DNA of 64,000 bases. Origin: Daucus carota subsp. sativus. Taxonomy: Eukaryota; Streptophyta; Magnoliopsida; Apiales; Apiaceae. The position numbers and the translations under genes were made by a program. The DNA lies in assembly GCF_001625215.2 (NCBI RefSeq), contig NC_030384.2, positions 46,534,390 to 46,598,389 of the forward strand, in the 5' to 3' direction. Positions 11,203 through 51,700 of the stretch are shown one piece after another; position 1 is the stretch's first letter; the number at the start of each line of letters is the position of its first letter. Under the pieces are notes generated by a model. That model saw only the letters and a list, made by a program, of their open reading frames with translations. It searched no databases and was not told the DNA's origin.

Positions 11203-13041
11203 TTTCTGTAATTACAAATATTTCTTACTATTTGTTCATCCCATTCCTCTTGAGCTATGACACGCAATCCTCAGTTCACATTGACAAAATGAAATAAGCT
11301 CAAAACTTCCATTTCTGATGTACCAGCAGGATCCCGTTTGAGCAACTTTGCGCCCAAGCATTTTAGTCCTTAGACATTATGAATAAGCTGAGCTTTAGAG
11401 TGCAGTAATCAGTATCATACAAGTTTTATTATTCACATATAAACTTATAAGCAGGAGACTAATGTGAAAATGTTTGTGCTTGTAATAAATTTGTTTATCT
11501 AGTAAACTTTTTTTTTTCAGGATCTAGTAAACTTCTTAATAGAATATGAATGTGAAACTTCTTTTTGATGGACAGAATATTTTTTCCCCAAAATTTATCA
11601 TTTGACACATATATATGAAAAAAGTAGTCTAGACAACGAAATGTATGAAAATAAAAATTATATAATTAAATTTATAATAGGACAAAAATCTAGAAGAAAT
11701 AATAATTTTTAAGAATATATCAATTTATATTAAAAGAAAATTATAAAATTAATAGTTGATACAAAGTGTAAAACTAAACAAGGAGATCTGTTTACTTTGA
11801 TGGGAAAGTTTGTATGAAATTTTTAGAAAAAAAAGAGCTTATAGCTAGAATTCCTTGAGGAGTGCTTCTGCTGATAATAATAAATAATTATAATAAATAA
11901 TTAACTATGAGCTCTATCTTTATCTAAAATTTTATATAACTTTCCGATTAATTAACGAGATCCTTCTTGTTTAGGTTTACACTTTGTATCAACTACACAT
12001 TTTGCTATAGATTATTTTATTTTTTATTTTTAAAACCATATTAATTCTTCTGGATTTTTGTTTTATCATAAATTTAATGACATGATATTTATTCGACCAT
12101 TTGATTGTCTAGAATACTTTTCATATACTCGGATCAGGTGATTAAAATTTTAAAAAATTACTTCCAAGTTTTATTACACACACAAGCATTATCAGCATAG
12201 TCTGCTGCTTCAAATTTATACAAACATTTTCACCCGAATATCCTATGCGTAAAACTTATACAAATTGCACTGCATCTATGTGCACTGATGCGAAGATTAA
12301 TCTTACAGTAAAGATTAATCGTCATGTGTACTTATATACAGGTTACATGTAAATAATAAAAATTCATCATACTCATTACGGCACTCTAAAGCTCTTATTC
12401 ATAACAGCTAATGACTAAAATGCCTTGGGGGCAGTTTTGAGCTCATCTTATCTTGTCAATGTGAACTGAGGATTGCTTGTCATAACTCAAGAGGAATAGG
12501 ATGAACAAACAGAAACAACAGACGCTCTTTGTCACGAGAACCTGGGACACCATGTCCATCTCCATATAAATAAACACATGAAGCTATCTTTTCCAGATTT
12601 AAGCAATTTTCAATAAAAGGTTTGGACATAGGAGACTCTGCACACTCTTCATTTAACTTCTTCCATGTCTCCGTTATCAAGTACTTAATGTGTTCTCTGG
12701 CTTCGTCTGCCGAAACACCCTTGTCATTCATGTAGCATTGAATCGATTTTGGATTGTCCCCTCTCTCCATTTCATGCTGCAAAATCCACATCATTTATAC
12801 TTATGTACATGAATAAGATGTATAACATTTGACAAGAAGAGTATAATTAAAGAATTTGTACCGTTGAAGTTGCCATATCATCTGCAAGCCTCAAAATAGT
12901 TGCTGAATGACGAAGGACGTTTGGACAAGTCATTAAGCACAGTAAGTCTTCTTCCTTCACCGAATTTGGTTTCAGGAAGTACATATGAGTTAACACTACG
13001 GGGACTGATATTGAGACCCATGCTTTGTCAAGGTATTCACT
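10733..13041. repeat. Palindrome 2 (terpene synthase tails, centre near 11874)
   Basis: The plus-strand synthase fragment and its 3' flank (10733-11847) are an inverted copy of the 3' half of the adjacent synthase and its flank (11905-13041). Paired landmarks: GGAAAGTT near 11803 with AACTTTCC near 11938; 'ttgatacaaagtgta' near 11756 with 'tacactttgtatcaa' near 11978; 'gctttagagtgc' near 11390 with 'gcactctaaagc' near 12382; 'tcctcagttcacattgac' near 11270 with its inverse near 12460. About 60 bp at the centre is unpaired. The region 11203-12479 has no gene of its own. Confidence 0.85.
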
Positions 13042-15428
13042 TAGACTTGGTTTATATCCGCTGTGGTACCACTTGGCCTCCACCAAATAAGCGTCAAAAA
13101 GATCAGTCCACTGCATAATTGTGTCAACTGAGTCAAAAGGAAACTACTTCACGCATAAGTACACAGAAACATTAGCCAGGGTACGTTAAACTTGCCACTT
13201 TTTGGAAGTAAGGAAGGATGGAGACACCATGTTCACGTTGGAAAACATTAGCTACTTCATTGATCTTATTATAGAGATCCGTAAAACAGATCTTCATAAA
13301 ATCTGGGAGTTGGTCCAGCTCTGCCGCATCCCAACTAATCAAGTAACCGCAGACAGTACTATCAGTGTGCCAAGAATAAATCATTATGAACATTAATAAG
13401 TTTTGAGTTTATATAATACATGTGATTAACCTTTTTGTTAATTTTGTTAACAATTCAAGTTCCTCCAAAGTACCATATACGTCATAGATATCGTCAATGG
13501 TAGTTACGAAGGCATTAACAGCAGTAATCACGCTCCTCGCATATTGAAACTGAGGCTCAAAGTTGGAACCCAGGCTCCAGTAGAAACACTCTATTAAACT
13601 TGCCCTCGCAAAGCTTAATTTCTCCGCCCACCCTATGCCCTTCCACCATCTGCACATAGATCACGGTAAGATGCACATTTCCAAAATAAAGAGTTTGCCG
13701 ATTAAGGAAAAATGAGATTAAAATAGCTACTAATTAATACCTTGACATCTCTTTGAGTTCATCTTGATAAGTAGCCTGGAGCATGTTATAGTCCAATTTT
13801 GCAAAACGAAGCAAATCAGAATCTTTTATATCGTCTGCTAGCATTGATGTCTCAAAGTAGTCAATGTACCACCTTGCTTCCATTCTTGACTCCGCCCAAT
13901 GCAGTGGAAGTTCTAAGGCACGGCTAACAAGTTTACTAAGTTCCTCGTCTTTACTGTTCTTATTATTTATGTAATCTGTCATATATTTGGTTGTGAAAAG
14001 TTGAGCCTCGTCCAATATCTTTTCATTCGTTTTTGAATGGTGTGATGCCTCGTACAAGTATAGCATACCCTTCATGTCACTGGTGAGACTGATCTTGAAC
14101 TTACCTGATTCGTTCAAAAATCCACTGAAAGCCTCTGCATTTTACACTCAAAGAAATTCCGATATCAGTTTGTTAGGTACAGGAGCGAATCTAGACACAA
14201 AATCTTAAGGAGTACCAAGCAAATTTTCGAAAAACACCTATATATTTTTAAATTGGGGGGGGGGGGGGCACTTCTATAGTTTTATAAAATTTAGAATGAT
14301 GAAAAAATGTAAAAAAAAATAAATTAGGGGGACACGTGTCTCCCCTGCCTCTTCCTAGACCGTCCCTGGTTAGGTGCCAGCCATTACAATCGTAGTATGA
14401 GCTTGGATGATCCAAAATATATATGGATAAAAATTGTTTGTATGAACAATTATTATAAAAAACATATCTGGTCATAAAGAGAAGCATTGTTAGGTATTAA
14501 GGCGGTACGAATTAGAACCATGTATTTCAGAATTAAATTATGATTTAGTTTAGGAATCGCTTGATAGTGGATACTTGAGTCTTGTTGGGCTTGAGTATCC
14601 AAGTTTGACTAATTGTATTATTAATAAGAGTTTTGATTATTAATACATGTCGGCCCTCAATTTTTCACGTCATGTATTGTTGTGTGTACTTTATATTTTA
14701 TATTAGAAGATTGAATCTCGTATTTTTATTCCTAATACAGTTGTCATCTATTTACATGAATATGACAGTTAAGAACAGCATGCATACTGACTACAGAGTA
14801 GATCATGAACTCACCTTGAGGAACTTTAAAATAATGTTGTCTTAAGAGTCGGAATTTGAGAGATGTGGCATGCAAATTATCTTTTCCGTACCACTTCTCA
14901 TTATTGTACACGGCTTCCAGAATTCTATTAATTTCATTTTTAAAGTGATAACCCACTCCAAGCCTCTGAACTGAATCAACTAACTCAAGCTTCCTGAGGT
15001 TGTCTGTATCTTCTTTGTTGAGCAGCATCCTCACACGTTCCTTCAAGTCCCCTGCATATTTATTGCATATTTCTCCCTGCATGCATGTGTAAACAATATG
15101 AAATTAAAGTTGTAAAAAACAGTTGTCCACTATATTTACACTAAAAAACATATTCTACCTTGAAATCACTGGCAAGAGATTGGACGAAATCATCATCCCA
15201 GATGGGAGGAGGATAATTGCCCGATCGACGAACAATTGATTTGTCATCAACACATGCATCGCCTCTACTGACCAAAGCAGCATCATTACTAGTGCAGCAG
15301 GTACTAGTAGTATGGATAGCCTTTGTGGATGGTGGCTGAAGAAGTGTAAGAGATGCAGCTGGTTTCACCATAAAACGAGTTGCAGAAGAACTCATACCAA
15401 GACTCACAGTGCTAATAATTAGGGCCAT
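12480..15428 (-). CDS. Terpene synthase, TPS-b type, probably plastidial monoterpene synthase
   Basis: Seven exons: 15159-15428, 14815-15076, 13741-14134, 13431-13649, 13199-13334, 12862-13110 and 12480-12776. They total 1827 nt (608 aa), the usual size and exon pattern for this class. Residues 1 to about 60 are Ser/Thr-rich and look like a plastid transit peptide. Residues 67-77 form the RR(x)8W motif (RRSGNYPPPIW) typical of TPS-b enzymes, which ionise geranyl diphosphate to cyclic monoterpenes. DDIYD at 361-365 binds Mg-diphosphate, and DDMATSTHE at 504-512 is the second metal motif, split by the last intron. Intron 2 carries a 567-bp insertion absent from the tandem copy. I chose the ATG at 15428 because the longer frame would need GTG. 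Both metal motifs are complete, so activity is plausible; the product cannot be read from sequence. Confidence 0.92.
14171..14737. mobile_element. Insertion in terpene synthase intron 2 with 5-bp TSD
   Basis: Intron 2 of this synthase is about 680 bp, against about 112 bp in the tandem copy (19255-19366). Aligning the introns places the extra DNA at 14171-14737. It is flanked by CAGTT at 14166-14170 and 14738-14742. It starts TGTTAGG and ends CCTAATA, near-inverse termini as in LTR ends. There is a G-run near 14257-14272 and no ORF. It is probably a solo LTR or a short retroelement derivative; internal TTAGGT repeats near 14369 and 14489 leave a nested structure possible. Confidence 0.7.
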
Positions 15429-17569
15429 CACTATAATACTATTAGTGGTAGTAAACAGTATACTAGCTATAGTACATGCATGCGAACAACGCTTAAGTTA
15501 TGATAGAATTGGAAGTTCGGAACCTGTTTAAATACAGACTTTCGAGCGTAGCTTAATTAACTTTTTCGAATTCCAAAAGTCAATATCTAACAAATACGAT
15601 TCCAAACATGCACATTTAATATAATGTTCGACTACTTTGGACAATTAAGAAAGCGAAGAAGCAGACATGCAAATTAATCGATTTGCACCTGAAATTAATA
15701 GTAAATTCATTGTTGGACTACTAAGATAATGAATTGTTAATTTTTTTTCTAGAAACAAAATCAGTAATTCAGAAAATAGTAATATTTTTTAAAATAATAG
15801 ACTCGTTTTTGTAAATAAAAATTGTTAAAAATTCTTGATTCCAAATTTCACAATTTGAATTGATATTGTTTTTTCATTGATTTCTTCTAAATTGTATCGA
15901 TTGGTTCTCAAGTTTACGCTTCAATTGGAATTTGATTATTATGTACCCAGCATCCAAGAAGATCAGTGCTAAATATTCATAATTGAATAATTAAATCCCG
16001 CAACCCATAATAGCAAATTCATAAATTTAATTTCTACACCGGAGGCACACTAATAGAGACTACAAATTTATTAAAATTGGCTTATATTGTAAGCACGTCA
16101 AGGGAGACTAGCTACAAATTTATTGAAATTGGTCTACACTAGATGAACATCAATCGGCTATCAATTAAATACTTAATAAAAATATACTCCCTCCGTTACG
16201 CTTTACACGCACTTTGTGTTGGGTGATTATTTAATTTAAACATATCTAAATAAAATATAGCCGATATGTGCTATATATTAGAGATATAATTAGTTTTATT
16301 GGAGCGTAGAAATAGGTGTTTTGATAATAGTAGCGCAGTAGAAGTAGGAGTCAGATAGTTACTGATTTATAGCTTGTATTTGTTTTCAGTTTAAATAACT
16401 CTGGACCTTGCAGTTCAGTTCACATACTTCCATTTATACACAGTGCCTGTGTAGGTGTATTAGTGCTTCATTTGGGTTATTATAAAGTATAGTTTAATAA
16501 TATTTTTTTAATTATTTTTCTTAAAATAAAAGTTCAAACATCAAAAAATTTTCCAGAATTATTTTTATATAAACTATTTTATTGATGTACCAATTTTTTT
16601 TTGGATAATTCATATATAATTTTTATTTTATCATCACAAATTATTTATTTTTTTCTATATCATATTTTGATAAAATTAATTATTCAATTTTTCACATAGA
16701 CTTCTAAATTATCGAGTCTTCTCATATCACCTAATTTATTTTCTCAAGAGTGTTACTTAATTATGCACACTTGTTTATCGTGTAAATTTGTGTTAAAAGT
16801 TATTACTTTAAATTACAATACAATTAAAGTAATAAGAGAACTTAAATTTTAAAATGACTTGGTGGGATAAATTGTTAAAATTTTAGGATGATATTGTTTG
16901 GATAATTTAAATTTATAGATATGTAACAATAAAACTAAATTTAATAAATTAATAAGTTAAATGGTGAGGTTAAAATAATTATAATAATTAATGATTAATA
17001 ATTATAATAATAAAATAACTATGAGCTCTTTCTTTTTCTAAAATTTCATATAACTTCCCGACTAACTAAAGAGATCTTCTCGTTTAGATTTACACTTTGT
17101 ATCAACTATTAATATTATAATTTCCCTTGATCTAGATTTTACTATAAATTATTGTTATTTTATATTTTTCAAACAAATTATTTCTTCTGGATTTTTGTCT
17201 TATTATACATCTAGTTACTGTGATTTTTATTTCCGACCATTTGATTGTCTAGAACACTTTTCATATACTTGGGTCAGGCGGTAAATTTTTTTAAAAAATG
17301 TCCATCCATATATCAATATTTCTCCTAAAAAACTTAACCCTAAATTTTAATACACACACAAACATTAGCTAGTCTCCCTGCTCGAAACTTATACAAACAT
17401 TTTCAACATGAGTATCCTGCCTAAAACTTATACAAACTGCATCTCTGTGTAAGAATTGAGACACAGATGCAAAGATTAATCTTACAGTAAAGATTAATCA
17501 TGTGTACATATATATCCACAGGTTACATGAATAATAAAATTTTTGTCAATGTGAACTGAGGATTGCTTG
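15429..17569. other. Intergenic DNA between the tandem terpene synthases
   Basis: No gene is seen. About 15429-15720 is the upstream region of the first synthase and resembles 20050-20250 upstream of the second, including the paired 'gactactttgg/agacaattaagaaag' stretch. About 16975-17300 is the second synthase's 3' flank and aligns with 11880-12140. A lone MITE end (TACTCCCTCCG) lies at 16185-16195. The shared flanks show that the tandem duplication included both upstream and downstream DNA, with a repeat spacing of about 5 kb. Confidence 0.6.
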
Positions 17570-20013
17570 TCATAACTCGAGAGGAATGGGATGAACAAAA
17601 AGAAACAACAGACGCTCTTTGTCACGAGAACCTGGGGCACCATGTCCATCTCCATATAAATAAACACATGAGGCTATCTTTGCTAGATTTAAGCAATTTT
17701 CAATAAAAGGCTTGGACAAAGGAGACTCTGCACACTCTTCATTTAACTTCTTCCATGTCTCCGTTATCAAGTACTTAATGTGTTCTCTGGCTTCGTCTTC
17801 CAAAACACCCTTGTCATTCATGTAGCATTGAATCGATTTTGGATTGTCCCCCCTCTCCATTTCAGGCTGCAAATTCCACATCATTCAAACTTATGTACAT
17901 GTATAAAATAAATGTAACATAGATTTTGAAAAGAAGAGGATAATTAGAGAGTGAGTACCGATGAAGTTGCCATATCATCTGCAAGCCTCAAAATAGTTGC
18001 TGAATGACGAAGTATGTTTGGACAAGCCATTAAGCACTGTAAGTCTTCGTGCTTCAGCGAATTTGGTTTCACGAAGTACAGATGAGTTAACAGTACGGCA
18101 CCTGATATTGAGAGCCATGCTCTGTCGAGGTATTCACTGAGACTTGGTTTATATCCGCTGTGGTACCACTTGGCCTCCACCAAATAAGCGTCAAAAAGAT
18201 CAGTCCACTGCATAATTGTGTCAATTGAGTCAAAAATGAAACTACTTCACACATAATGACACAAGTACACAGAAATGTTAGCGCCGGGGTACGTTAAACT
18301 TGCCACTTTTTGGAAGTAAGGAAGGATGGAGACACCATGTTCACGTTGGAAAACATTAGCTACTTCATTGATATTATTATAGAGATCCGTAAAACAGATC
18401 TTCATAAAGTCTGGGAGTTGGTCCAGCTCTGCCACATCCCAACTAATCAAGTAACCGCAGACAATATATGTATCAGTGTCCCAAAAATAAATCAATAAGA
18501 ATAATAGTATTAAGTGTTCAGTTTATATAATACATGCAATTTGCAATTAACCTTTTTGTTAATTTGGTCAACAGTTCAAGTTCCTCTAAACTACCATATA
18601 CATCATAGATATCGTCAATAGTAGTTATGAAGGCATTAACAGGAGTGAGCACGCTCCTCGCATATTGAAACTCAGGCTCAAAGTTGGAACCCAGGCTCCA
18701 ATAGAAACACTCTATTAACCTTGCCCGCGCAAAGCTTAATTTCTCTGCCCATTGTATGCTTTTCCACCATCTGCACATAAATCACGATAAGATGCACAAT
18801 TCCAAAATAAGGAGTTTGCCGATTAAGGAAAAATGAGATTAAAATAGATACTAATACCTTGACGACTCTTTGAGTTCATCTTGATAAATTGCCTGGAGCA
18901 TGTTATAGTCCAATTTTGCAAAACGGAGCAAATCAGAATAATTTATATCTTCTGCTAGTGCTGATGTCTCAAAGTAGTCAATATACCACCTTGCTTCGTG
19001 CCTTGTCTCCGTCCAATGCAGTGGAAGTTCCAAGGCACGGCTAACAAGTTTACTAAGTTTCTCGTCTTTATTGGTCTTACTATTATTTATGTAATCTGTC
19101 ATATGTTTGGTTGTAAAACGTTGTGCCTCGTCCAATATCTTCTCATTCGTTTTTGAATGGTATGATGCCTCGTACAAGTATAGCATACCCTTCATGTCAC
19201 TGGTGAGACTGATCTTGAACTCCCCTGATTCGTTCAAAAATCCATTGAAAGCCTCTGCACTTTCCAGTCAAAGAAGTTCTAATATCAGTTGTCATCAATT
19301 TGCATGCATGTGTACACTTAAGAACAACATACTACTGAGTACTGACAACAGAGTAGATGAACTCACCTTGAGGAACTTTAAAATAATGTTGTCTTAAGAG
19401 TCGGAATTTGAGAGACGTGGCATGCAAATTATCTTGGCCGTCCCACTTCTCATTATTCTATTAATCTCATTCTTGAAGTGATAACCCACTCCAAGCCTCT
19501 GAACTGAATCAACTAACTCAAGCTTCTTGAGGTTGTCCATGTCCTCTTTGTTGAGCAGCATCCTCACATGTTCCTTCAAGTCCCCTGCATATTTATTGCA
19601 TATTTCTCCCTGTAAAAACAATATCAAAAGTTGTAAAGAACAATTATACTCCCTCCGCCCCTTTCTAGTTGTCGAGTCTTGACTTTCAGTCTCTAATTGA
19701 CGGGGAGCACACTATATTTACACTAAAAACATGATTTAATTACCTTGAAATCACTGGCAAGAGATTGGACGAAATCATCATCCCAGATTGGAGGAGGATA
19801 ATTGCCCGATCGACGAACAATTGATTTGTCATCAACACATGCATCACCTCTACTGAGCAAAGCAGTATCATTACCAGTGCAGCGGATGCTAGTAGTATGG
19901 ATAGCCTTTGTGGATGGTGGCTTAAGATGTGTAAGAGATGATGCTGGTTTCAGCAATATTAAACGAGTTGCAGAAATACTAACACCAAGACTCACAGTGC
20001 TAATTACAGCCAT
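17570..20013 (-). pseudogene. Terpene synthase tandem copy with 19-bp exon deletion
   Basis: Seven exons parallel those of the upstream copy: 19744-20013, 19367-19609, 18858-19254, 18552-18770, 18307-18442, 17959-18207 and 17570-17866. Transit-peptide-like N-terminus, RRSGNYPPPIW, DDIYD and DDMATSSPE are all present. Exon 2 is 243 nt against 262 nt: 19 bases are missing between 19457 and 19458, flanked by ATT in the intact gene. The frame shifts after NEINRI and stops within exon 2 before the catalytic domain. Restoring length would give 610 codons, so this is the only frame lesion I see, and it looks recent. It is either a pseudogene or a null allele. The ATG at 20013 aligns with the tandem copy; the longer frame begins at TTG. 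Confidence 0.9.
19647..19711. mobile_element. Short MITE remnant in intron 1 of the second terpene synthase
   Basis: About 65 bp absent from intron 1 of the tandem gene. It begins TACTCCCTCCGCCCC and ends near GACGGGGAG. This fits an internally deleted Stowaway-type MITE. Both ends are short, so confidence is moderate. Confidence 0.5.
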
Positions 20014-20741
20014 TACTATGATACTCTTAATGGTATTGGAAGTACACAACCAGTTTAAATAGCGACTTGAGTGGCTTCAGACTTGAGTAACAAACATGAT
20101 TGTAAACATGCACATTCAATGTTCGACTACTTTAGACAATTAAGAAAGTGAAGAAGCAGACATGCAAATTAATCTCCACCTGAAAATTTCAAAATAAAAA
20201 TAAAATCTCCACCTGAAATTAATAGTAAATTCAATGTTGGACTACTAAGATAATGAATTGTTAATTTTATTTTTAGATATAAATCATTTTATTTAAGAAA
20301 AAGATATATATTTTTTAAATAATTATATATTCATGTTTGTGAATAAGAAATTCAAAAAATTTCTCGATTCAAAAATTCAGAATTTGAATTAATGTCTTTC
20401 CATTGATTCTTCCTAAATTACATTAATTGATTCTGAAAATTTTGTTTCAATTGTAATTTGGTTATTATTTATTCGTCATATATAAGGATCCCAGCTAAAT
20501 ATTATGACTAAATAGTTCTTTTTTTAAGGAAAGACTGAATAGTTAAAACCCCCATTTATAATTGACGAATTTATAACTTCAATTCTTATTAGATAATTTC
20601 TACACTGACGCACGCCAAGGGACACCATAAATTTTTTGGTATAGGCTATTAAATATTTCATAGGAAAATATAATATGTATGGTCAAAATAGGTCCTTGTT
20701 CCGTAAAATAAGGGTCAAACATGCCTCAAAAAAGGACTTGC

Positions 20742-32283: not shown

Positions 32284-32488
32284 CAATGGACAAACTTAAT
32301 GTTGCATGGATCAAAATTGCTTACGATATGTCGGAGCAATTTTAACAGGTCCACGTATATATATGATTCACAGAATTTTATAGTTAAGTAAATATTTAAA
32401 TCCATAAGAAAATCGTATATCCCATGATTCAATTAATAATTCTTTTGACCTGTGGCAGTTTCATCCTGGATTTGCTGCTGCTTCCACT

Positions 32489-32635
32489 TGTTAAAGTATA
32501 AGATCCATAAAGGGGCCTCCTCTAACACCTTAAGATTTTAGAGGGAATGGTTCTCTACATGGTATCAGAGCTTATAAGATCCATAAAGGGGCCTCCTCTA
32601 ACACCTTAAGATTTTAGAGGGAATGGTTCTCTACA
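32489..32635 (+). mobile_element. TRIM-like LTR retroelement, 147 bp, with 5-bp TSD
   Basis: A 71-bp LTR (32489-32559) starts TGTTAAAGTA and ends TCTCTACA. It is followed immediately by TGGTATCAGAGC (32560-32571), the standard primer binding site complementary to the 3' end of initiator tRNA-Met. A second LTR copy lacking its first ten or so bases runs to 32635. CCACT flanks the unit on both sides (32484-32488 and 32636-32640). There is no coding capacity. It shares its LTR layout (GATCC, CCTCCTC, AACACCTT) with the element at 47118-47311, so both belong to one family. Confidence 0.85.
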
Positions 32636-32804
32636 CCACTATCAATAAGTAATTTTGTATTTGGTAACATAATATACCAATATTTCATATTTCCTACATT
32701 GTCCAATCACCGAACAAAAGTTTTTTTCTAAGTTCTAACGTAGAACATAAAACTTTTAAAGAACGTCGTCAATCAGTCAAACTTTTGAGTCCAAAAATAC
32801 TTAC

Positions 32805-45700: not shown

Positions 45701-48700
45701 ATTTCAATAGACCAGAGTGAAGAATAAAAGGGGAAAAAAGATATTATTAGCTCGATCATATAGATGAGAATGAAACAATATATCCTAACTGCCCAAGTCC
45801 ATAGACCCGAACAGTTATGTTTCAACACGTCAATTAACGTTGTTTCTACTAGTCGTTCAAAATTATCCACAGACTGAGACATAGGCCTGATCCATAGTTA
45901 AGATATACTATATATTGCATGACATAAAAAATTTATATAGTTCCCTGAATAGGACATTTTAATTAAAATTGTATCCTAAAGTTATCTACACAATAAGTAA
46001 GATTGAGATCTCTTATTGTTGAATCATGGCTCGTTAATTTTTGACATGATGGACATTAATGATTGACCAAAGAAGTCAAGAATCATTCCTTTTATAAAAT
46101 TTACTGATAGATCTCATGCATGTTTTAACTTATGAAGGAAGCAGCCAAACAGGAAGAGAAGAACAGCGATGCACTTGACGAATATATAATTAGACTTACT
46201 AGGCTCCACTGCTATGGCTGATATAAGAGGACCATAAACTCCTCTGAGTGGGATTCCAGTAGTGCCTTTCCCAGCCCAGTAAAAGTGAATCTTCAGTGTG
46301 TGGCTTGTTACAGCTACAGTAAAATTCTTAATAATGGGCTTCCCATCCCCACCAGCTTCAGCTTCAATGTTAAAATCCTTGAGCACCAACTTTTCCTGTA
46401 AAAAGAGTACAGTAGATTTAGCAATCACGAAAAATCTCTATTTCTCCCTTTATTTATATTCTCTGCATAAGAATATCTTGATTACCTGAATGTAGACATC
46501 AAAGATACGCTTCCCAAGGCTGTTAAATGATCTGTCATTGGTGAAAACAATTTCTGCAAAATGGAGGCTGACAGTGTAGTTCCCATTCCCAAGACAGAGT
46601 CCATAGTAAGTAAGAGAAACGGGAGATGTACGTGCTGTTTTGTACAAATTTAATAAAGATGCAGAAACATTTTTTAGTGCAGAAGTGTTCGTCGTAATAT
46701 AGGCATCAGCATCAAGATCATTGTCCATAAATATTCCCGTACTGCTGAATGCCCAATTCTGTCTTGAGTAGAACATTGAAGCTCCTCTGAATTCCACATC
46801 AGCTTCGAACCTGGTGTTATTGTTGATTACTACATCCTCCCCTCCACAATTGATGTACAGGAAATACTTGTCTGTTCAAAGTTGATAAACCTCACAGAAT
46901 GTAAACAAAGATATATAATAAAAATAAAGAAGAAGGAAGCATTGCATGGCAAAGATGGGAACTTCCAAGTCAAGCATATAGAACAAACACTTATACTCCA
47001 TTTAGTAGGAAGGGATGGAATAAGGTAGGAATTAAATAAATCCTTGTGACTAAGTTGGAAGATGAGAGAAAATGTAAGAGGGAACAATGGGAGGGAAATA
47101 ATAGTGTGCAAATTTTTTGTTAGAATATAATATGTGATCCTTGGTAAGCCCTCCTCCCAACACCTTGAGGTTGTGGGAGAACTGGTCACTTAACATGGTA
47201 TCAGAGCTCATGCTCACGGGAGTGAGGGGAAATGTTAGAATATAATATGATCCTTGGTAAGCCCTCCTCCTCCCAACACCTTGAGGTTTTGGGAGAACTG
47301 GTTACTTAGCATTTTTGTTCTTAATCAAGTAAATCAACTCCTTAAACTCTTTGTCACGGGATGCGGGTCTCCCTATTTCCAACTCTACATGTATGAACAT
47401 TCAGAACTTGGCTAACACACACTCTATTCTGCACTTTACGATTGCTAGGCAACTTCCTAGAGATTCTTTTAGAATGAATAATCATAAGAAACTGTTTAAC
47501 TGTAAACTATCAATTATAAGTCTTTTCAGGGTACACCAGTAAGCCGGATCAATCTGCTAATATGACTTGCGGTCAAATAGTCACCCCCCAACCTGTACTT
47601 TAATGACTTATCCTAAGACCTTTAAGGTTTTGGGATAGTTTAATTAACATGGTATCAAATTTAGTTTATCCAGATATCTCATTTGACTCCTGGGGACCCC
47701 CATCACTTTCACAGTTTATATTGCACCGCTGTTGTCGATTCGTAAGGATACCAGCTATGTAACTAACTTCCTGATTACCTGAAGAGAACTTTACAATTGT
47801 AGATTTTAGAATTACGAGAAATATACTTTCTGCCTGATTATCTCAAAAAATATTAGTAAGAAAAAAATCTGGCCTAGTAAAATCTGTTATCTGGCCTAGT
47901 AAAATTTGTATCAAGATTTGACTTCACCTTTGGTCATATACTTATATTTCTAAGGCCGGGATACATCACTTACGACCTGTCTATAATTTATTATAGCCTA
48001 CATGAAAATAAATAGGAGGTCCGGGGTCTGATTCTTCTGAATAAGATGATATGTAGGTAGTAATGGCTGGAATATGTTCAGGGCACTTCAGGCTGATAAC
48101 AAAACTGGATTTGTATAGTCACTATCCCCAGTATGTGTACTGGTTTTGTTTTTCATGATGGAACTGCACTGTATACAGAATTCGTGTGTAAAGAAGTGTG
48201 GGTCTGTTTTCTGCTAGGAAACTTGATAGAAGCACTCACTTCATATATTATCTCTATTAAATTTTCTGGAAAATGATTTAGTTATTTGCTCCCAAAAAGC
48301 TCTATCTGCATGCTCTTGCATATGAGAGACTATATTTCATATAATATTACTGTTTCTGTTTGCATACCGTTAAGTGGACTGTAATACAACATTTTAATAA
48401 TCATGCAAAATGTTTAGGCCAACTATGCATACAAGCAACTGTATGAAATATTACATAAATGGTCAGATGCTTAGCAAGAAAATTACTCACAATCACGACT
48501 GGGAGCAGAACAAGGAAAATTTTTCTTCAGGCATGAATGAACTTTATCTCTGTAGGAAAACACACAAAGCAAGCACTATTATTAGTCAGGTTGAAATAAT
48601 CTTATCCCCTAAACTATGTAAGTCAGAGAATTAGATCTTTCATTCAACACAACACTAGGACAAATGATAAAAAATATATATATAATTACTAAAAGTTGAG

Positions 48701-51700
48701 ACCCTAGTACAAGGATTACATTTTATCTGCTGATGAAGAATAGCTTTCCACTAAGTTCCTGGAGGAACAAATGAAGACCTTGTTATTACAATATACATAC
48801 ACTGGAAAGTTTGAAGTACAAATAAGTCTGCACTTACACACTTCCTCTAGGACATTCAAATGGACTTGAGACTTCTGCATTGAAATTGTTGTACGAGATA
48901 TCTCTGCACTCCAATATGCAAAATGAAAACAACAATGGTCATCAAGCCAAGTATAGGCATACAACGACTAAATGATTGTGATATTTTTCAGCTGTGTATG
49001 ACACTCTTCGCTAAAGAATAAAATTATCTTACAAAGAAGATAACTTGTTATGCCTCAAATACATTAATTTATAACTCTAATTAAATATGGCAAAAGTTCA
49101 TACGCATTCTTATTCCGAGATAATATCCATTCAGGTATGGGCCCACTAAGCTTGTTACCTGTCAAATAACTTAAAAACAAGCATAACTTAGTATTTTGAA
49201 AGAAAAAAACTAAAATGTGAGAAATATCAGGAGTGGACATAGACTTACATGTAATCGGCTTTTGCTAAATTGACAAAATTTGATGGAATATCACCAGCCA
49301 AGTTATTAAAACTGATGTCTCTACATAAACAAAGCAATTGAATAAGTTTCTAGTGGACTCTGTAAATTAACTTGTACAAAAAGGAGTAGCTATATTAAAT
49401 ATGAAATAAAATAGTGCTACACCGAGATTGACCGAACATTTCAGAAAACATAACAACTTTGTAGCACCTAGATGCAAACATGTAAAATAATATATGTGTG
49501 TGTGTGTGTTTTATCATTGTTAGTTAAGAACTTTCAGACACAGCATGTGTAAAGTTTCCTTTATTTGAGAAAGTCCCTTCTGTCTAACCATGCTTTCTTG
49601 CAGAAGGGCATTTAGATGTAATATGCTTAGAGGGCACGTATATATAAGGCTGGTTGAGCCAGGTCTTCATTTGAAAAGGCACTTAAACTTATTCTCGGTT
49701 TCAACTTTTAATCACATATTTCATATCACGAGCTTAATTGCAATAACAGGACCTTTAATCTAACATAATTGCACCCATAAGTGATAAATTGACAAACATT
49801 TCTGACTCTTCTTTTTAGATAACAATATATGGATACGAGCCAATGGAATGTTGTCAGTACATACATGATACAACCACAGACCATGACAGATTCTATAGTA
49901 AGAATTAGAAGCTACGTACATCGTTTTCAGATTTTTTGCCTCGCCGATGTATGAAGGAATCTCTCCGCTAATTAAGCAACTTCTTAGTATCCTGCATCGC
50001 ATATTCTAATTTTACCATTGTATTCAAATATTGATGGTGTATTTTCTAAAAATGAAGGAAAACAACTTACAAAGTCTTCATCGACTCCATGCTTAATGTG
50101 GGAAAAGAGAATTCTTTACCTTTTAAGTCACTGATCCTCCTAAAAATTTGGCCAATAAAAGGAAAATGGAAGATACATTATATACTATATGGCATATGCA
50201 ACCAACAAAAAACAAGAGAAGGAGAAACAAGAGTAAAATTGCATACAAATCACTTAAGCTTTTTAAGTTTGAAATACTGTCAGGAATTGGGCCCTCAAGA
50301 GAGCAACCTTGCATGTGCCTGTAATATAATATACAAAAGCGCACAGGATTGTTGAGATCAAATCACTCTTCTCGACTTTGTGCACATGAATTCGGAACAA
50401 GCTTTAGGTGCAGTACTTACAGTTTCTCAATTTGTGACCATCTCTGAATGAAATCAGGTATCTTGCCAGTAAAATTATTGTCACTTATTCTCCTGCAGTT
50501 TTTCAAAGATTTAAATGTCAAAATGAAATTTCCAGCAGAAGTGGAACTGCGATAGAAGCAGTAATTACCTAAAACTGAAAGTTGAATAGAAGAATCCTAT
50601 GATTATATATTGGATTGTAAGAAAGAATGTGTAATTGGTTATAAATACTATCTATTTGGTTGGCCTTTTTTTTCCTGACCAGTAACTTCATGCTCTGAAA
50701 TGATAAAGAGGGTTTTCGATTTTGAGTAAGTGTTCTATACAGATTAAAGCTTTCCGCGTCTTATATTAGTGTTTTTTTTGTTCAGAAACCTCTCACAAGT
50801 GATTATTTAGAAACCGAAAAGTAAGTAGAGGGCTACATTTTTATTTCCTCTTCAAGCTCTTACAAATAATAAATTATATAAACATTTTAACTTGGGGTGA
50901 TTATTAAGAGATGTACATACCAAGTACCAAGCAGGGTAGGCAGCAACAGGCATTCATAAAATATGAAAGGAAATATATACTTACATATCAGTCAAGTTGG
51001 TCAGATTAGAAAGTTCTTCTGGCAACTCTCCTGAGAATGAATTTGATGATAAAACACTGAAAGTGAAAGTGAAGATGCGTTTGTATTAATATTTTAATTA
51101 ATTATGTTAACACGATATTCACATCTCTGAAATTTCTAGTAAAATATGTGTATGACAAGTTCAAAAAAAATTACAGCTTTTGTAATTTGACCAAGTTTCC
51201 TATATCTGTGGGGATTGCTCCAGAGAAAGCATTTCCTTCTAGGCTCCTGCAATATTCAGATGTTAATAATTTGTAGGCAAATTCAGCCTCTCCGTCACAC
51301 CAGCCATAATTTTCATTATGAAGCTAGTATAAGTTATAATTAATACTAATTTATCTATGTATAAAAAGCATAGTGTATGTATTTCTTATATATATGGATA
51401 CTACACATTTTAATCTATTGCCTTGTACATAAAGAGTGCTTTATATGTATTCATTTAACTTAATCTGATATCACCACTACACACAGTTAGGCTGCAGATA
51501 CTTTTTACCTTGAACACATTGTATAACAAAATTTTACATTGTACAAAGTTCTGAGCATACTATATCCACCATTAACAACAAGCTCTAGGAAAAATATCAG
51601 TCATGAAATCTTAAGAAGAGATTCAACATACAGGTTTGATAGAGTAATGATATTGGTAAGCGCCTTTGGAAATGGACCAGATAATCGGTTTCCCATAAAA

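Follow-up and report, generated by a model that had tools for sequence, protein, structure and literature searches.

The window analyzed here is a stretch of 64,000 nucleotides from the carrot genome (Daucus carota subsp. sativus, contig NC_030384.2). Pfam searches place malectin and kinase domains, a terpene synthase, and PMR5N among its genes. An open reading frame on the reverse strand (46450–46875) encodes the initial portion of a malectin domain (PF11721, E = 2e-24), and we take it as an exon of a host receptor-kinase-like gene. Directly upstream of this frame on the gene's strand, and antisense to the gene, is a 194-bp element with the anatomy of an LTR retroelement. Further upstream are open frames that look LRR-like by eye (49760–50362), although the one searched against Pfam (50123–50362) had no match. 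From the malectin frame and these upstream frames, the element is probably intronic. Two other repeats occur in the window. A degenerate LTR end and primer site of a further relative lie about 300 bp from the element (47611–47657). Direct repeats about 5.1 kb apart span terpene synthase–like exons at 12453–20314, with inverted partial copies at about 7–13 kb; Pfam was run on one of these exons (18851–19267).

The 194-bp unit occupies positions 47118–47311 on the forward strand, has TG...CA ends, and reads LTR, primer-binding site (PBS), polypurine tract (PPT), LTR, with TTTTT on each side. The 5′ LTR (47118–47195; 78 bp, TGTTAG...TTAACA) contains a hairpin, CTCCCAACACC-TTGA-GGTTGTGGGAG (47154–47179), recognized as an inverted self-match, in the predicted fold, and by pairing across the family. 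The 12-nt PBS, TGGTATCAGAGC (47196–47207), fits the LTR-PBS junction pattern and is the complement of the initiator tRNA-Met 3′ end. After a 10-nt spacer (47208–47217) comes the PPT, GGGAGTGAGGGGAAA (47218–47232), which fits the PPT-LTR junction pattern; it includes one T, and its uninterrupted purine run covers 47224–47232. PBS, 10-nt remnant, and PPT together make up an interior of 37 bp (47196–47232). The 3′ LTR (47233–47311; 79 bp) has the corresponding hairpin, CTCCCAACACC-TTGA-GGTTTTGGGAG (47270–47295), seen as an inverted self-match and in the fold. The target-site duplications (TSDs) lie at 47113–47117 and 47312–47316. The two LTRs differ by three substitutions across 76 aligned bases, plus five gap columns, differences so few that any insertion date is loose. 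At this size, the element would be non-coding.

A preliminary description of this locus had proposed two LTRs, a 12-base initiator-tRNA primer site, a purine tract, and flanking 5-bp repeats, and this anatomy is present. Its spacer of about 14 bp is 10 nt by our delimitation, and the length varies with the position chosen as the start of the purine tract. It had also called the TTTTT duplication weak by itself, and we agree: the duplication is a low-complexity T run. Stronger evidence comes from the host genome, where 35 of 62 TG...CA-bounded loci have perfect 5-bp duplications.

The host assembly that we searched comprises 441 Mb in 11 contigs. A single search with the 194-bp unit found at least 48 matches (40 scored of 605 candidates). 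At up to three mismatches, the junction of PPT and 3′ LTR start matched 255 genomic places, and the junction of LTR end and PBS matched 488; the reversed control of each matched none. Thirty-nine loci were retrieved from the 194-bp-unit search and 60 regions from 100 listed PPT-LTR places among the 255. With the window copy, these two sets gave 102 oriented loci, a sample biased in that 39 came via a query resembling the 194-bp copy, and the remaining 62 were mostly picked for a perfect PPT-LTR junction. A third set comprised 40 regions from 100 listed LTR-PBS places among the 488.

Candidates bounded by TG...CA were found in 62 of the 102 oriented loci. The 35 perfect target duplications among them include 32 distinct sequences; of the remaining 27 bounded loci, 13 match at four of five bases and 14 at fewer. 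With the 3′ five-mers shuffled, perfect duplications averaged 0.68 and never exceeded 4, and the true chance level is slightly above this, as each locus was scored at the best among a few candidate ends. When the third set was combined with earlier loci, 14 of 54 had the duplication immediately behind an LTR end (shuffled, 0.7; maximum, 4), one of which (L119) is doubtful. These 54 are the loci left after removal of L130–L132, which are copies of L129, and of loci without a recognizable TG start. The host genome thus holds the family at hundreds of places, with independent 5-bp duplications at 35 of the 62 bounded loci. The preliminary description had staked its reading on other copies with independent target duplications, and these are abundant. 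It had also suggested looking for empty sites; the flank of the 194-bp element is single-copy in the host genome, and no paralogous empty site was found.

We find that the modal element of this family is 304–305 bp long, with LTRs of 72–73 bp and a PBS-to-PPT interior of about 158 bp. This size was seen in 13 of the 35 copies with perfect TSDs, whose whole range is 150–954 bp. Among 62 oriented PPT-based loci, the interior is 157–163 bp in 34, shorter in 10 (two below 50 bp), and longer in 8; 10 have no recognized PBS. LTRs are identical in 8 of 17 measured copies of 300–305 bp, which indicates recent mobility of the family. LTR types A and B have the PBS, the PPT, and a related interior in common. 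A third type, C, is joined to that interior in one genomic locus (L079) and in a 147-bp copy within the window (32489–32635). The 194-bp copy is closest to type A, but has a longer LTR.

More complex arrangements also occur. Four loci (L015, L069, L065, and L083) are tandem arrays with at least three LTRs, and another (L051) contains two elements in inverted orientation. At C8:20.72–20.79 Mb, four LTR-PBS fragments (L129–L132) lie inside 70 kb. The first three look identical in the stretch compared, and L132 matches only from the LTR end onward; the group is apparently a segmental duplication.

The LTR hairpin is a property of the whole family and is not special to the 194-bp copy. In an alignment of 65 distinct fuzzy-pattern matches and the 5′ LTR of the 194-bp element, pairing holds in 89.1% of cells. 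A single pair varies, being U-A in 27 sequences, C-G in 19, U-G in 8, and unpaired in 12. None of 500 shuffles, which ignore relatedness among the sequences, attained the covariation score of 0.201, and slid versions of the hairpin scored at most 0.125. A hand-picked alignment of 49 rows (48 of the 65 matches and the window's 5′ copy), from which some in-register rows had been left out, gave 91.4% pairing, with 8 of 500 shuffles reaching the observed value. Neither alignment had more covarying pairs or more pair types than its shuffles. By eye, the type B stem is one base shorter per side. Folded singly, the LTRs are not more stable than expected (z = −0.30 and −0.88), which argues against over-reading the hairpin, while the covariation test counts in its favor. 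The hairpin is probably functional, perhaps with a role at RNA ends or in strand transfer. The hairpin design that had been put forward as a possible mark of an undescribed family is thus present and covarying, but is shared family-wide and does not set the 194-bp form apart. Two hairpin patterns had no matches in viral and prokaryote collections, as expected for a plant element. Copies with inverted LTRs matched microRNA models (MIR5380, MIR7127, and animal miRNAs) below gathering scores, alongside many unrelated models; we read these as generic matches to long hairpins and rejected them.

The 37-bp interior fits the first 24–27 and last 10–13 bases of one full family interior. This prefix and suffix fit yields 32 matches in 37 positions, against a maximum of 19 in 500 shuffles. 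The 194-bp copy thus lacks 123 nt of family interior, and there is a 3-nt microhomology at the junction. At up to three mismatches, the genome has a single match to that junction (control, none). No common junction was found among 30 shortened interiors within the 141 stretches compared; the exclusion is genome-wide for the 194-bp and 147-bp copies and otherwise covers part of the 255 and 488 junction places. Candidate shared junctions were flagged by the comparison for 5 of the 30 loci and rejected: that of L011 and L069 is different sequence, and those of L035, L060r, L091r, and L107 gave no match when retested by hand. The unique junction and the absence of a shared short interior make 194 bp look like a one-off size.

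Thus, the 194-bp unit is very probably an internally shortened copy of a TRIM family of about 305 bp (SMART-sized), with most of its interior lost. The LTRs, PBS, PPT, and 5-bp duplications bear out the earlier assignment to LTR mini-retroelements of TRIM/SMART type. Two further proposals are incorrect or lack support. The 194-bp size does not define an undescribed family, given a family unit of 304–305 bp, a unique junction, and 30 shortened interiors with no short interior in common. Nor does anything show trans copying at 194 bp, as had been suggested in calling it near the smallest element that could be so copied, since none of those shortened interiors have a junction in common. We see no sign that the 194-bp form itself was copied, and it was shortened either before or during integration, or after insertion. 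Such a copy would be transcribed from one LTR, primed by initiator tRNA-Met, reverse transcribed, and integrated at a 5-bp stagger by proteins of a putative Ty1-copia–type partner. The interior would have been lost through either a template jump in reverse transcription or microhomology-mediated deletion after insertion.

Other short or rearranged copies occur in the family. Copies of 150–195 bp with perfect duplications are found at six loci (L018, L056r, L024, L019, L012, and L077r), not all of which have a whole PBS, PPT, and both LTRs, and duplication-flanked copies of 147, 150, and 165 bp are below the size of the 194-bp element. The 147-bp copy (32489–32635), a type C relative, consists of a 71-bp 5′ LTR, a PBS, and a 3′ LTR without its first bases. 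It is flanked by perfect CCACT duplications (32484–32488 and 32636–32640), its LTRs are identical by eye over the stretch in common, and its junction, too, has a single genomic match. In 4 of the 35 perfect-TSD loci (L069, which is a tandem array, L070r, L077r, and L107), the end LTRs come from two subfamilies. In L126r, an A-type LTR or element runs into the final 13 bases of a C-type LTR within the TSD GGCCT, and L032 and L044 terminate at their 3′ side in an inverted piece of LTR, yet the duplications (CTGAC and TAATC) are perfect. Chimeric LTRs, the L126r join, and inverted LTR ends inside perfect duplications are most simply explained by recombination before or at integration. Such recombination happens in members of the family, as the four chimeric loci and L126r attest.

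Shortened forms might therefore be made by template jumping in reverse transcription and integrate already short, with the 194-bp copy as one such product. The chimeric and inverted ends inside perfect duplications, and the identical LTRs of the 147-bp copy, are consistent with this reading, which we nevertheless hold to be somewhat doubtful. Many other LTR-PBS copies continue into host sequence without a visible duplication, and duplications directly behind the PBS are about as frequent as expected by chance: TSDs 8–45 nt from the LTR end were found in 3 of 54 loci, against a shuffled mean of 1.95, a count reached in 102 of 300 shuffles. One-ended LTR and PBS insertions with duplications, striking at L021, L029, and L116r, were accordingly rejected as chance. 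The copies that continue into host sequence and the chance-level duplications favor loss after insertion. The 3-nt microhomology of the 194-bp copy is compatible with either timing, and for this copy both stand: loss before or during integration, and loss after insertion. A broader proposal is that reverse transcription keeps yielding recombinant, interior-less products (copies of 147–195 bp, chimeras, and inverted-LTR ends) able to insert with ordinary 5-bp duplications, that LTR, PBS, and PPT would be enough for final integration, and that the 194-bp element is one terminal product. We offer this as speculation and consider it rather unlikely.

An alternative to the shortened-copy reading is that the 194-bp form belongs to a mobile, ultra-small family copied in trans. 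It keeps both LTRs, the PBS, and the PPT, and the other copies of 150–195 bp with perfect duplications, though not all complete in these parts, count in favor of this reading. However, its junction is single in the genome at up to three mismatches and no two of the 30 shortened interiors have one in common, which makes this explanation very improbable. We reject a claim of a new smallest mobile LTR element.

Another possibility is a Cassandra- or Helenus-type TRIM, whose LTR would carry an RNA polymerase III promoter. The full family interior contains a GTTCGA-type box that we take to resemble the tRNA B box. However, this box lies in the interior, outside the LTR, and Rfam searches (E up to 1) found no match anywhere in 47000–47450, which includes the 194-bp copy, and neither 5S rRNA nor tRNA matches in four fuller copies, so that we give this explanation hardly any weight. 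A tandem duplication of about 115 bp of host sequence, with no retroelement involved, would account for two repeat copies 113–116 bp apart, but is refuted almost beyond doubt by a second copy that ends exactly at the TG...CA end and TTTTT, by the same LTR, PBS, and PPT at hundreds of sites, and by the independent target duplications.

The carrot family resembles several known small LTR elements. SMART (FRetro129), reported from grasses only, is 292 bp long with 85-bp LTRs and a 122-bp non-coding interior, and has solo LTRs of 79–87 bp in O. brachyantha; it has TGT...ACA ends and a 5-bp TSD, is often in or near genes, and has a proposed Ty1-copia partner, according to the portion of that report available to us (PMC3281118). 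The carrot family resembles SMART in its ends, TSD length, and size (304–305 bp), whereas its LTRs are shorter (72–79 bp) and its interior longer (about 158 bp), and the window copy is shortened to 194 bp. This likeness is one of anatomy, and we do not assign the family as a member of SMART. Six LTR sequence strings had no match in literature text.

Helenus, Cassandra, and Ajax are likewise small, non-autonomous LTR elements, and plant Helenus has a 5-bp TSD as seen here (PMC10886601, in part). Unlike Helenus and Cassandra, the window copy and four fuller copies have no tRNA- or 5S-like sequence detectable by Rfam. In pigeon pea, the TRIM CcaRetroS9 is 233 bp long with 52-bp LTRs and 10 complete copies, and is the smallest published TRIM that our literature searches turned up (PMC4717578). 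The window form is similar as a very small TRIM with direct LTRs and is below CcaRetroS9 in size, but its short interior was found once. The printed examples of tandemly arrayed TRIMs in the same portion are maize SMART (PMC4717578); the carrot family has four arrays with three or more LTRs, as well as L051 with its two inverted elements.

By these anatomical comparisons, the carrot family appears to be of the same kind as TRIM/SMART elements, and the 194-bp element is a genuine, ordinary relic of a known kind of element rather than a family of its own. Our results reveal in this host plant a TRIM family of SMART size, divided into several LTR subfamilies. Its deleted and chimeric copies provide a natural sample for studying which parts an LTR element needs and at what point interiors are lost.
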